Positions 12,736 to 56,903 of a stretch of 64,000 bases of DNA are shown one piece after another. How positions within the stretch are numbered: position 1 is the first letter of the stretch; every line of letters begins with the position of its first letter. The position numbers and the translations under genes were made by a program. The DNA is from Thermogladius calderae 1633 (GTDB lineage: Archaea > Thermoproteota > Thermoprotei_A > Sulfolobales > Desulfurococcaceae): contig NC_017954.1 of NCBI RefSeq assembly GCF_000264495.1, positions 1 to 64,000 of the forward strand, read 5' to 3'. The notes under the pieces are model-generated. The model saw only the letters and a list, made by a program, of their open reading frames with translations, ran no database searches and was not told the DNA's origin.

Positions 12736-13245
12736 CTATCTGTCGCCTGAGGCAACGTAGAAGTAGTCGACCCTGAAACCTATTTCGCGGATAGCCCCAT
12801 CCAAAGCCGGGGGCGGCTCCGAGCGAGACTTGTGGTGCCGGGTCACGACCACGACTTTCGCCACCCTTCTCAGCTCGCTCAACGCCCTACTCCTGTCCTC
12901 CAAGTTGTCCCACACGGTGACCGAGTAGGCGACGTCAAAGTACTTGTCTACCGCGGGGGTGTTTTCTATGTAGGCCACGACAGGTATAAACCTCGGGTCG
13001 CTTGACCGGGAAGCCGCTATTCTAATCATGCCCTCGCTTGCGTCTAGGCATACATAGATTCTGAAGTCGTCTAGGCCCCTCTCCACCATGTAGCTGTACA
13101 GTAGGCCAGTGCCGCACCCTGCGTCCAACACTCTCTTGTAGCCGCCGAGTAGCCCCTTCTCTTCGATGAACCCGTACTTCGAGTACTGCTCTTCTCTATA
13201 TAGAGTGTCGTAAGATTGCGCGGTCAAATCGTACAGCTCAGCCAC
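12736..13245 (-). CDS. Class I SAM-dependent methyltransferase
   Basis: The product (169 residues from the GTG at 13245; the frame is open to a TTG at 13269) has the Rossmann motif I LDAGCGTGLLY, the acidic loop VCLDASEGM and the SVTVWDNLED motif. A short C-terminal part follows, so it is a minimal methyltransferase without an obvious substrate domain. The preferred start gives an 8-base overlap with the nucS stop (GTGGCTGA), a common coupling arrangement. The substrate is unknown. Being tied to NucS may hint at DNA or nucleotide metabolism, but that is position only. Confidence 0.8.
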   Translation of the reverse strand: MAELYDLTAQSYDTLYREEQYSKYGFIEEKGLLGGYKRVLDAGCGTGLLYSYMVERGLDDFRIYVCLDASEGMIRIAASRSSDPRFIPVVAYIENTPAVDKYFDVAYSVTVWDNLEDRSRALSELRRVAKVVVVTRHHKSRSEPPPALDGAIREIGFRVDYFYVASGDR

Positions 13246-14011
13246 TGAGGTACTTCGACAGCCCTCCAAGCCTACCCCGCCTCTTGAGGTACTCTAAGAC
13301 CTTCTTCGCGTCGATGTACCTCCACTCGAGCCCCAGCCTACTGAGCAGCTCGATCGCTGCGGGGGTAAAGGACTGGGCCACCAGTATTCCGCGAGGCCTG
13401 CTGCCTCTCTCGTTCTCGAGGGCCGCAACATACTTGTATAGTTGGTAAACAGCGTCCTTAGTGGCCGTGCCGCGCTTGACCTCGACAACCACGTACCTAC
13501 CCTCTGCGTCTCTGGCCAATATGTCGACCACCCCCATGCCAGTCCTGACCTCCCTCGCCAACACCTCTATGGTCTCCCCGAGAACACTCGGGTTCTCGAA
13601 CAGGTAGTCCCTGACCTCCGCCTCGTCGAAGTACGCTAAGAACTCCCCTCTATCCGCCAGCCTACCTCTTACCAGTACGTCGACTTTGGTGAAAGTTACT
13701 TTCAATACTTCTCTGGGCTTATCTCTCACTGCGACCAACGAGAGCCTCCCATCCGGCTCGATCCAAGCCTCTACGAGGTCGGTTCTAGGCTGGTAATTGA
13801 CCGGTTGGAAACCAGTTGGCCGGTGGACTATTAGAGACCCGTCACTCTTGACTACGACCACTCTCTCCCCCGCAGAGAGCCTCGTATAACCCCTGCCCTC
13901 GTACTCGACCTCGCACTCGCCGATAAGGAGGAGCACCTCCTTAGACCTAAGAGCGTCGACTACTTCTTTCAACGCGGACTCCAAGTCTGGCTCTTTAATC
14001 GCCTTTATCAA
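13238..14011 (-). CDS. nucS: Mismatch endonuclease NucS/EndoMS
   Basis: The 257-residue protein matches NucS: an N-terminal beta-rich DNA-binding and dimerisation domain (HRPTGFQPVNYQP), a linker, and a RecB-like nuclease domain with GMGVVDILARD and VVEVKRG catalytic motifs and a QLYKYV helix. NucS/EndoMS makes double-strand cuts at mismatches and replaces MutS-MutL mismatch repair in many archaea and actinobacteria. No MutS or MutL gene is seen in the window. It is the first gene of a pair with the methyltransferase. Confidence 0.95.
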   Translation of the reverse strand: MIKAIKEPDLESALKEVVDALRSKEVLLLIGECEVEYEGRGYTRLSAGERVVVVKSDGSLIVHRPTGFQPVNYQPRTDLVEAWIEPDGRLSLVAVRDKPREVLKVTFTKVDVLVRGRLADRGEFLAYFDEAEVRDYLFENPSVLGETIEVLAREVRTGMGVVDILARDAEGRYVVVEVKRGTATKDAVYQLYKYVAALENERGSRPRGILVAQSFTPAAIELLSRLGLEWRYIDAKKVLEYLKRRGRLGGLSKYLSG

Positions 14012-14062
14012 TCCAGGCGACCAGAATAGAGTATCGTGAGTGTGCTTATTTAAGTGGTCTAG

Positions 14063-14950
14063 ATGAAGGTGCGGCTCATAGGCTTCGATAGTATGGGAAC
14101 AAGGGGTATGGCGACATTTATCGACGTGAACGGCGTTACGATATTTGTTGACCCCGGCGCGAACCTGGCACCCCGCAGATTTGGTCTACCGCCACACGGG
14201 GTCGAGCTGGAAGCCTTAGACAGGGCTCTACACGAAATAAGGAGTCTAATGATAGAAGCGGAGTACGTCGTCGTGAGCCATTACCACAGAGACCACTTCT
14301 TGTACAGGAAGGGCGAGGAAGACCTCTACAACGGTAAAGTCGTCCTAGCAAAAGACTTCACGAGGAATGTCAACTTCAGCCAAAGAGCGAGGGCGTACGG
14401 TTTGTTCGTGACGAGAGGGGTATCAGGCAAGGTCAGAAGCCTCGAGATCGCCGACGGCAGGTCTTTCAGGATCGATCGAGACCTAACCATAGAGTTCTCG
14501 CCTCCACTTCCACACGGGTCGGAGAACACGAGACTAGGTTACTTGGTCTACACAGTTGTAAGAGCGGGCGGGAAAGTCCTTGTACACGCGAGCGACGCGC
14601 AGGGCCCGATGTCCAACGCGGGTGTCGAGTTCCTAAAAAAGGCGAGGCCCGACGTTCTAATTATTAGCGGGCCCCCCACCTATTTGAGAGACCTGAAAAC
14701 GCCCGAGCCCGAAATAGAGAAAGGCGTCCGGGGACTGCTCGAAGTGGCCTCCTCATTGCCGGATGAGTCCACGATCATAGTTGACCACCACCTCCTCAGA
14801 GACCTTGACTACAGGTGGGTTTTTGAGACGGTAGAGAGAGCATTATCGTTGAGAGGCGTGCGTGTCAGGCTAACAACGGCCGCAGAGTACATGAACCAAC
14901 CTGTAAACCAGCTTGAAGCGAGGAGGAGGGAGCTGTGGGGTCGCCGGTAA
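14063..14950 (+). CDS. UPF0282 family metallo-beta-lactamase-fold hydrolase
   Basis: The 295-residue protein has the MBL-fold metal motif HYHRDH, an N-terminal SMGTRGMATFIDVNGVTIFVDPG block and later single acidic/His ligands (HASDAQG, VDHH). The pattern of a long insertion between strand and HxHxDH is typical of UPF0282, an archaeal family of unknown substrate. Its 3' end overlaps the next gene (SPOUT protein) by 16 bases, and RqcH follows, so it is the first gene of a likely three-gene transcript. Confidence 0.88.
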   Translation: MKVRLIGFDSMGTRGMATFIDVNGVTIFVDPGANLAPRRFGLPPHGVELEALDRALHEIRSLMIEAEYVVVSHYHRDHFLYRKGEEDLYNGKVVLAKDFTRNVNFSQRARAYGLFVTRGVSGKVRSLEIADGRSFRIDRDLTIEFSPPLPHGSENTRLGYLVYTVVRAGGKVLVHASDAQGPMSNAGVEFLKKARPDVLIISGPPTYLRDLKTPEPEIEKGVRGLLEVASSLPDESTIIVDHHLLRDLDYRWVFETVERALSLRGVRVRLTTAAEYMNQPVNQLEARRRELWGRR

Positions 14951-41356: not shown

Positions 41357-41710
41357 TTGAGCGTCGAGCTGACGACCAGAGAGGAGCTCGAGCGGGCGCT
41401 ATCCATTGAAGAGCCTGTGATTGTCGAGTACTACGACCCCGACGTAGAGGAGAGCAGGTTCTTCTCAGAGGTAATAAAGGAGTTGGGGAGAGTAGCCGAC
41501 CCTAGGTTGCTTTTCTGCCGTGTGAACGTTAAACAGCACGAGGAGCTCGCCGACGGCATAGGAAGCGTGCCGGCAGTGAGAGTGTTTTACAAGAAGAGCG
41601 TCATCTTCGAACAGAAAGGGTGTTTCGGAGACCTCAAGCTCGACTTGATGGTTTTGAGGCGCGGGATTAGAGCCGTGTTCGAGAAGATCGACCTGCGTTT
41701 CAGGATCTAG
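41357..41710 (+). CDS. Thioredoxin-fold protein lacking the CxxC motif
   Basis: The 117-residue product looks like a thioredoxin-fold protein: EPVIVEYYDPDVEESRFFSEV, a strand RLLFCRVNVKQHEELADGIGSVPAVRVFYKK (thioredoxin-like cis-Pro region GSVPAV), and a C-terminal helix. The redox CxxC is absent, so it probably binds or holds partners rather than exchanging disulfides. It starts at a TTG and is divergent from the thermosome, with a TATA-like GTTAATAAAG at 41312-41321. Its proximity to the chaperonin suggests a folding role, as inference. Confidence 0.75.
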   Translation: MSVELTTREELERALSIEEPVIVEYYDPDVEESRFFSEVIKELGRVADPRLLFCRVNVKQHEELADGIGSVPAVRVFYKKSVIFEQKGCFGDLKLDLMVLRRGIRAVFEKIDLRFRI

Positions 41711-41717
41711 AGGTCTC

Positions 41718-42536
41718 CTATATAGGTTGGCTTCTACCCTCGATCTCCTCCACGATCAGCGCGACCTCGTCCGACTTTAAGTATACCTGGAAGAGAACAG
41801 AGGGCTTGGAGGGCCTGTACAAGGGGTGGTAGACCCCGTCCTCCCCGACTAGCACGTATCCACGCTCGACAGCTAACCTGAGCTCGCCTACGCTCGCCGT
41901 CTTAACGAAGCTATTGAGTTTATTAGTGAAGTCAAGGGCGTCTCTAACGTACTTCTCTGTTACGACAGCCCCGCAGACAAGACAGGAATAGTCCGGCATT
42001 ACAGAGTTAAAACCGCACTTAGGGCACTGTACTGGTGACCTGATCCCATACTTAGTCCAAAGGTACTGGAGGGTGGCGATCAGGTCCTCCCTCCCATACT
42101 CTTTAGCCAACTTGTATAGCCTGCTGACCTCGGCGACGGCCGCCCTGCCCCCACTGTAGACGATGTACTCGAGCTGCTCGCGTGTAGGTCTCTTTATCAG
42201 CTCAAGCATCTTTGCCGAAACGAGCTCGTCGACCTGGGGCTTAAACCTCTTGATCCTCCTGAGAACCGTGTCCACGTCTGGTTTAGAGGAGAGACCCTGT
42301 GTAACGAAGTCGAGCACTTCTAACACGATCTTCTTGGAGACTTCCTCGTCTAGGCCTAGTTGAGATAGCCCTAATGCATCGTTAACGTACCCGTACATCT
42401 TATCCAGCAGATCGCTCGCTTCGAAAGTCTTCTTCCTGGTAGCCTTACGCCTGGTCTTGGTTTCGGTCTTTTTCTTTTTTCCCTCCTCTTCCTCTGCAGA
42501 CTCCTTTTTACGAGTTCTACGAGGAATGAGTACCCC
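41718..42536 (-). CDS. Zinc-ribbon protein with lysine-rich N-terminal linker
   Basis: From the first ATG (42398) the product is 226 residues: a helical region, then a zinc ribbon (CPKC and CLVC near 125-140), then a beta-rich tail. The same frame stays open upstream to 42536, encoding a K/E/R-rich stretch of about 46 residues (KKKKTETKTRRKATRKK) that looks coding yet has no ATG, GTG or TTG. It opens immediately after the TAG of the preceding gene, in the same frame. Either an unusual start (for example ATT near 42530), readthrough, or the ATG at 42398 is used. No known family. Confidence 0.65.
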   Translation of the reverse strand, partial: GVLIPRRTRKKESAEEEEGKKKKTETKTRRKATRKKTFEASDLLDKMYGYVNDALGLSQLGLDEEVSKKIVLEVLDFVTQGLSSKPDVDTVLRRIKRFKPQVDELVSAKMLELIKRPTREQLEYIVYSGGRAAVAEVSRLYKLAKEYGREDLIATLQYLWTKYGIRSPVQCPKCGFNSVMPDYSCLVCGAVVTEKYVRDALDFTNKLNSFVKTASVGELRLAVERGYVLVGEDGVYHPLYRPSKPSVLFQVYLKSDEVALIVEEIEGRSQPI

Positions 42537-42863
42537 CTACGAGTACTCCCTACTTGAAGACCGGCTCTCGAGGGCCCCGGAGTCTCTCTCCTCTATGTAC
42601 TCGGAGATCAGGTAGCTGAGTATCAGCTTGGCTACTGAAGACCTCTTCCTAAGCTTCTCCAGTATTTTCAGGTATTTTTCTGTCCTGTTCTTTTTACCGG
42701 CTTTACGAGCGAGCCTCTTCACAATGAAGTTCAGTATGTCCTCGTACTCGGACTCTATGTCCACCTTGTCCTCGTAGTACTCCTCGATGATCTCCTCGAT
42801 CATGTCGCCTAGGAGCTCATCGGTCATGTCCATCAAAGTGTCAAGAACCGATTGTCCGACCAC
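42537..42863 (-). CDS. Acidic helical protein ending at an in-frame TAG
   Basis: The 108-residue product begins with an acidic helical stretch (MTDELLGDMIEEIIEEYYEDKVDIESEYEDIL) followed by a basic region (KRLARKAGKKNRTEKYLKILEKLRKR) and a Ser/Arg tail. The TAG at 42537-42539 is in the same frame as the downstream zinc-ribbon gene. A GAGTAC...GTACTC hairpin spans the stop. The gene has a promoter-like AT-rich patch (about 42900-42920) upstream. Function unknown; it may be the N-terminal half of a single protein whose ORF is interrupted. Confidence 0.65.
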   Translation of the reverse strand: MVGQSVLDTLMDMTDELLGDMIEEIIEEYYEDKVDIESEYEDILNFIVKRLARKAGKKNRTEKYLKILEKLRKRSSVAKLILSYLISEYIEERDSGALESRSSSREYS

Positions 42864-55587: not shown

Positions 55588-55971
55588 CTACTTTACTAAG
55601 ACCCCGTTCAAAACTCCGTCTTGCCCTGGCCTCGAAAGGATTTTGACCAACCCTACCTCCGTCTTGACGATCGCGCCTTTAACGATTATCTTGGACCTCG
55701 CTAACTGGGGGTTAGACGGGACGTTCACGACGTCTAGGATCTTGACTCTCTTGACACGCTTCTCTTCTGGCAAGTAGACGTTGACATAGGTTACTCTCTT
55801 CAGCTTTACCTTAGTGTTCCCGCCCACCGTCCTAACGATTTTCCTCTCCTCCTCTCCCGCCAGGGTCGTATTGATGGGCGAGCCCCCTAACTCGTATTTC
55901 CTCTTGTCCCTGCGTCGTCCTTTCTTACCCCCCGTTATCTTTTTGAAGTCGTTACCTTGGTAGTACGACAT
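55588..55971 (-). CDS. rps8e: Ribosomal protein eS8
   Basis: The 127-residue protein has the eS8 pattern: SYYQGNDFKKITGGKKGRRRDKRKYELGG and VLNGVLVK at the end, with basic strands between. It binds the 5' domain of 16S rRNA. ATG 55971 is preceded by GGTG at good spacing. The longer frame starting at 55980 adds three residues and is not used. Confidence 0.95.
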   Translation of the reverse strand: MSYYQGNDFKKITGGKKGRRRDKRKYELGGSPINTTLAGEEERKIVRTVGGNTKVKLKRVTYVNVYLPEEKRVKRVKILDVVNVPSNPQLARSKIIVKGAIVKTEVGLVKILSRPGQDGVLNGVLVK

Positions 55972-56072
55972 TAACAGCACCTTCCTCTTTCTAGAGTTTG
56001 AAGCCGCCTTATAAACTTCTTTAAGTTGTAAACCTATGTATAAAATCTGGCAAAGTCCAGGGAAGCAGAGGC

Positions 56073-56903
56073 ATGCGCGGATTACTCGCCTCTTCTCAGA
56101 GAAAGCTCGAGAGGTTCGCTTTCAGGGTACTAAGCTTCTTCGAGAAGAGAGTTCTTGAAGACATCTACGAGAGGTGGCTGTGGCTCCAGATCAAAGACGG
56201 CCCGTTTCCTACGCACATAGGCATAATCCCAGACGGGAACCGTAGGTGGGCCAAAAAGTTCGGTTTAGACCCTTTGACAGGGCACGAGACCGGCTACGAG
56301 AGGATTAAAGAGGTCTTGAACTGGATCTGGGAGCTAGGTGTGAGGTACGTAACGATCTACGCTATGAGTAGCGAGAACTGCAGGTTCAGGAACCGCGAGG
56401 AGTTCTATCACCTGCTCTCCCTGCTCAGGAGAGGAATTAGAGAAATACTGGAGTCGGGCGAGATCGATAAGAAGAGGATCCGAGTCAGGGTGATTGGGGA
56501 CTTAGACATGCTCCCGCCGGACCTCGTCGACGAGATCAAGAAGCTGGAGGAGAGGAGTAGCTCGTACAAGGACAGGACGTTGATGATCGCCGTATGTTAT
56601 GGCGGTAGACATGAGATAGTCGAGGCCGTTAAGAAGATTATTAAAGAGTACGAGGAGGGAAAAGTCGGCTTGGACGACATAAACGAAGAGACTTTCTCAA
56701 AATACTTGATGACGAGCGATATCCCAGACCCTGACTTGATCATAAGGACAAGCGGGGAGGTGAGGATAAGTAACTTCTTGTTATGGCAGTCCGCCTACAG
56801 CGAGCTCTACTTCTGCGACGCTTACTGGCCTGAATTCAGGAAAATAGACTTCTGGAGAGCTATAAGGAGCTATCAGGCCCGCGAAAGAAGGTTCGGGAGG
56901 TGA
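56073..56903 (+). CDS. uppS: Cis-prenyltransferase (UppS family)
   Basis: The 276-residue protein has the cis-prenyltransferase signatures HIGIIPDGNRRWAKKFG, TIYAMSSENCRFR, and ending IIRTSGEVRISNFLLWQSAYSELYFCDAYWPEF. It makes long-chain polyprenyl diphosphates used in N-glycosylation or cell-surface synthesis. It is divergent from rps8e and its 3' end is adjacent to the convergent coiled-coil gene (no gap). Confidence 0.95.
   Translation: MRGLLASSQRKLERFAFRVLSFFEKRVLEDIYERWLWLQIKDGPFPTHIGIIPDGNRRWAKKFGLDPLTGHETGYERIKEVLNWIWELGVRYVTIYAMSSENCRFRNREEFYHLLSLLRRGIREILESGEIDKKRIRVRVIGDLDMLPPDLVDEIKKLEERSSSYKDRTLMIAVCYGGRHEIVEAVKKIIKEYEEGKVGLDDINEETFSKYLMTSDIPDPDLIIRTSGEVRISNFLLWQSAYSELYFCDAYWPEFRKIDFWRAIRSYQARERRFGR

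Follow-up and report, generated by a model that had tools for sequence, protein, structure and literature searches.

Genes with weak start codons are already known in bacteria. The infC gene, which encodes bacterial IF3, begins with AUU or AUC and is autoregulated, and Streptomyces sigR begins with GTC and is repressed by IF3 (PMC5472188). For archaea, the in vitro work described in PMC6237735 and PMC8211752 indicates that aIF1 of Sulfolobus solfataricus discriminates against non-canonical starts. Pyrrolysine and UAG readthrough have been described in these organisms as well (PMC8211752), and according to a 2021 review demonstrations of non-canonical translation in archaea had been confined to elongation and termination (PMC8211752). 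No earlier report of a conserved AUU or AUA start in archaea was found in the open-licence PMC literature; a start of this kind is proposed here for an archaeal gene.

The gene pair lies within a window of 64,000 nucleotides (positions 1–64,000 of contig NC_017954.1) of Thermogladius calderae 1633, whose genome is a single contig of 1.36 Mb and carries the pair in one copy. The upstream gene, up (42537–42863, minus strand), encodes an acidic helical protein of 108 amino acids, starts with GTG at 42863 and terminates with TAG at 42537–42539. As the first-pass annotation had noted, a second ORF, dn, follows in the same frame from the very next codon and opens with a lysine-rich stretch devoid of ATG, GTG and TTG; we confirmed each of these features and placed them on the minus strand. 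The dn ORF is open from 42536 to its stop at 41718–41720, a total of 272 codons beginning with GGG, and its first canonical start is an ATG at 42396–42398, reached after 46 codons. Among the 58 long ORFs of the window, the median number of codons ahead of the first ATG, GTG or TTG was 6, and a start-free run of at least 40 codons was found in only three, the dn ORF included, which makes this run unusual. Two long ORFs on the minus strand, at 13238–14185 and 55588–56121, have 58 and 47 codons, respectively, ahead of their first such codon and are probably shadow or extended ORFs.

The first-pass annotation had offered three explanations for this junction: a stop codon that is read through, initiation at an unusual codon such as ATT, or a gene split by a recent nonsense mutation. 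We searched 61 genomes for the up and dn parts and found that they are separate neighbouring genes in most relatives, with the up homologue adjoining dn. In the Desulfurococcaceae-type relatives, the dn start lies −23 to +105 nt from the up stop, in any of the three relative frames. Among the loci compared, the same frame combined with just 9 nt between the TAG and an ATT (42525–42527 in the window, minus strand) was seen only in three Thermogladius genomes; the nearest relatives of the window are Thermogladius MAGs. The two other Thermogladius genomes, at ∼70% protein identity, likewise have a TAG in this frame and lack a canonical start downstream of it, and the junction is therefore not a sequencing error. 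A same frame interrupted by a single stop is what one gene split by an error or by a recent nonsense mutation would leave behind; with the TAG common to three species, and with up and dn occurring as two genes in varied frames and at varied distances elsewhere, we rejected the nonsense mutation and regard a split gene of either origin as having practically no probability.

The same comparison bears on readthrough that would fuse the two ORFs into one protein. One frame across a single TAG is kept in the three Thermogladius species, as such a fusion would have it; against this, the relatives in general show neither a fused product nor a kept frame. The GAGTAC (42543–42548) and GTACTC (42528–42533) segments that flank the TAG on the minus strand can indeed pair, as the first-pass annotation stated, but the potential hairpin (42528–42548) has an unremarkable folding energy (z = −1.05) and is not formed in the two closest relatives, L002 and L003. 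It is probably coincidental, and thus the stop codon lacks a conserved stimulatory structure in these genomes. The genome contains no match to PylS above the TIGR02367 cut-off. The locus therefore resembles pyrrolysine and UAG readthrough systems in its in-frame UAG and differs from them in having no PylS above the cut-off and relatives with separate genes. A Shine-Dalgarno motif and the ATT also account for the sequence beyond the TAG, and we consider readthrough very unlikely.

We then aligned the dn protein with 31 relatives, assigning the start positions by eye from the N-terminal motif. Homology begins at the sequence I-P-R-K, the isoleucine of which is encoded by the ATT at 42525–42527. 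In two relatives, L025 and L034, this I-P-R is replaced by M-P-R with an ATG codon, and in most other families of the order the aligned codon is ATG, GTG or TTG; the ATT thus occupies the position of an ordinary start codon. Across the 32 genomes of the window's family, the aligned codon was ATT in 15, ATA in 7, GTT in 5, GTC in 1, ATG in 3 (L009, L025 and L060) and GTG in 1, so that a non-canonical codon is present in 28 of the 32 genomes and in 10 of the 13 genera. One genus, g5, may use AUA/GUA or GUU/GUC. ATC was never found at this position, although it accounts for 101 of the 462 isoleucine codons (22%) elsewhere in the same ORFs. Three changes between canonical and non-canonical codons suffice to explain the distribution on the family tree. 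Of the 28 genomes with a non-canonical codon, 17 have no ATG, GTG or TTG in the interval from the preceding in-frame stop to the aligned codon. In most of these 17 the next such codon lies 24–106 codons downstream, and in several the following 50–100 codons are free of them. The other 11 have an in-frame ATG or GTG upstream of the aligned codon that might be used; in several relatives, the in-frame GTG is itself part of a Shine-Dalgarno GGGGTG.

These alignments also bear on the possibility that dn begins at the ATG at 42396–42398, which would leave the lysine-rich stretch as untranslated sequence or a fossil. This codon is the first canonical start and would be the choice of automatic gene callers. 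It corresponds to residue 44 of the dn protein counted from the ATT, and in the AlphaFold2 model of dn (pLDDT 86.6) it would sit inside a predicted helix at residues 37–51 and cut it. The basic tail and the first helix, which lie upstream of the ATG or span it, are conserved; many relatives have no ATG, GTG or TTG nearby, and several have none before the end of the helix. The first-pass annotation had named initiation at this ATG as an outcome that would overturn its proposal, and the comparison makes that outcome very improbable; we reject this ATG as the start.

A GGGGGU sequence at 42532–42537 (minus strand), whose first G is shared with the TAG, lies 4 nt upstream of the AUU and matches the 16S 3′ end, for which the sequence GGCTGGATCACCTC is present in the genome. 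Relatives have their motifs at a matching distance: GGGGGT, GGGGTG, GAGGTG, GGTGAT or GGGGAT was found 3–9 nt upstream of the proposed dn starts, and the pairing energy peaks around these starts and falls to background at distances of at least 12 nt. Pairing was stronger at non-canonical starts (mean −8.97 kcal/mol, n = 41) than at ATG (−4.66 kcal/mol, n = 30) or GTG/TTG starts (−5.23 kcal/mol, n = 40), with Mann-Whitney p = 1.5e-9 and 6e-8, respectively, when related genomes are counted as independent. In the window, the energy before the ATT is modest (−5.3 kcal/mol) and no better than that before the ATG at 42398 (−5.6 kcal/mol), and the case for AUU hence rests on the comparison among genomes, the window alone being indecisive.

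Taken together, the start of homology, the conserved non-canonical codons and the upstream Shine-Dalgarno motif indicate that dn most likely begins at the ATT at 42525–42527 and encodes 269 amino acids (41718–42527). Judged from the sequences compared, up and dn are very probably two separate genes, the second of which starts at AUU, and the weak start appears to be an old and conserved property of the family, with AUU or AUA in most members and GUU/GUC in one genus. We infer that initiation at the AUU is with methionine. Of the possibilities raised at the outset, the non-standard start is thus strongly favoured and assigned to one codon. A near-cognate start that is conserved for one specific gene is what dn would share with infC; like sigR, it would combine a gene-specific non-canonical codon with a two-gene cluster, and in g5 dn may even use GTT/GTC. 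As in these systems, the codon is of a conserved non-canonical type and a Shine-Dalgarno motif stands at initiation distance. Unlike infC, dn is archaeal and shows no homology to IF3 by any search run; the dn protein is unrelated to that of sigR, and in sigR the weak gene is the first of the operon, whereas dn is the second.

In the mechanism that we propose, the UAG would end up in the normal way, and the adjacent Shine-Dalgarno motif would place a 30S subunit, perhaps one just released, at the AUU. The initiator Met-tRNA would then read this near-cognate codon with a mismatch at the third position. The weak codon may well have been retained because it limits dn output or makes dn responsive to the stringency of initiation imposed by aIF1. 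Since aIF1 discriminates against non-canonical starts, the output of a gene with a weak start should be sensitive to initiation stringency. The machinery known from S. solfataricus is thus expected to disfavour the dn AUU; the difference is that this discrimination is known from in vitro work, and the literature searched contained no example of a natural target gene with a conserved AUU/AUA start.

To see how specific the weak start is to dn, we used 28 neighbouring gene families at 20 loci of the window's family as a control. Homology extending at least 8 residues ahead of the first ATG, GTG or TTG was found in many members (7 of 20) only for dn; in a few other families it occurred in one or two members. 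In the order as a whole, dn was found in 147 of 157 genomes and is missing in family f9. The window's family is probably Desulfurococcaceae-type and family f11 (loci among L095–L133) probably Sulfolobaceae. All 16 dn homologues of f11 start with GTG or TTG and none with ATG. In family f6 the aligned codons are ACG, CTG and TCG, the last in four genomes. TCG is not near-cognate, and the alignment-based assignment of the start in f6 may therefore be wrong. An SD-like sequence precedes the ACG or TCG at seven f6 loci (L097, L116, L118, L119, L123, L138 and L139); close relatives in f6 alternate between ACG and TCG, and for some of these loci translation may truly begin at a GTG or ATG further upstream. 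On these counts of dn starts, AUG may be avoided beyond the window's family.

The similarly weak starts of the relatives suggest that dn production is held down or regulated at initiation, and by analogy with the bacterial genes we give regulation through the dn start codon about an even chance. A serious rival to this regulatory part, and to this part only, is that ribosomes do initiate at the AUU but nothing is regulated through it, the codon having drifted from AUG and been tolerated thanks to a strong Shine-Dalgarno motif and coupling to the upstream gene. The stronger pairing at weak starts is in keeping with such drift, as is the ATG at the dn start of three genomes of the same family; the persistence of the weak start across genera at ∼40% protein identity with only three changes, the lack of ATG in the Sulfolobaceae homologues (0 of 16) and the absence of this pattern from the neighbouring genes argue against it. 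We judge tolerated drift to be somewhat less probable than an even chance. A broader possibility, regulation of the infC kind, is that dn is a core archaeal gene, present almost throughout the order, whose weak start and Shine-Dalgarno motif are preserved by selection, and whose output reports the stringency of aIF1 or acts back on initiation. The weak starts would then comprise AUU/AUA, GUU/GUC, ACG, CUG and GUG/UUG, and only a minority of lineages would have AUG. We put this reading forward as a whole, codon range included, only tentatively and think it rather unlikely.

If the conserved AUU/AUA gene family is real, it would offer a natural, testable example of archaeal non-canonical translation at the initiation step, and the gene could readily serve to report on the fidelity of aIF1. 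It would also mean that gene callers limited to ATG, GTG and TTG must truncate or misplace dn in many genomes, with loss of the basic tail.

The dn protein consists of a lysine-rich disordered tail (residues 1–33), a helical domain, a CxxC..CxxC zinc ribbon and a C-terminal alpha/beta part. Its occurrence in single copy in nearly all genomes points to a core role. Searches of Pfam, NCBIfam and PDB sequences, and of the AlphaFold2 model against the PDB, recognised only the zinc ribbon. Eight of the 31 relatives match the TFIIB-type ribbon (PF08271) at E values up to 0.05, the best being 2.5e-5, and the dn protein of the window itself did not exceed the curated cut-off of this family (11.6 bits vs 29). 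No solved relative was found by sequence, and no fold match to the model reached E 0.001. Matches to histone H2B (E 0.16 and above) are probably an effect of the lysine-rich tail and were discarded. The up protein had no Pfam or NCBIfam match above cut-off.

The surroundings of dn were recorded as well. On the plus strand, convergent with dn, lies a small thioredoxin-like ORF (41357–41710) with weak Pfam and NCBIfam matches, a homologous family of which recurs near dn in 20 relatives. In f11, the place upstream of dn is mostly taken by the gene for another small protein, which contains cysteine and has L-P-(L/M)-D-F-x-D-L as its C-terminal sequence. In family f2 (L067, L069, L087, L088, L091, L098, L126, L129, L131 and L134), up is replaced by a GTPase-like protein of ∼400 residues with a TGS-like C-terminal end, ..EIRT(T/K)(I/V)KG(I/V).
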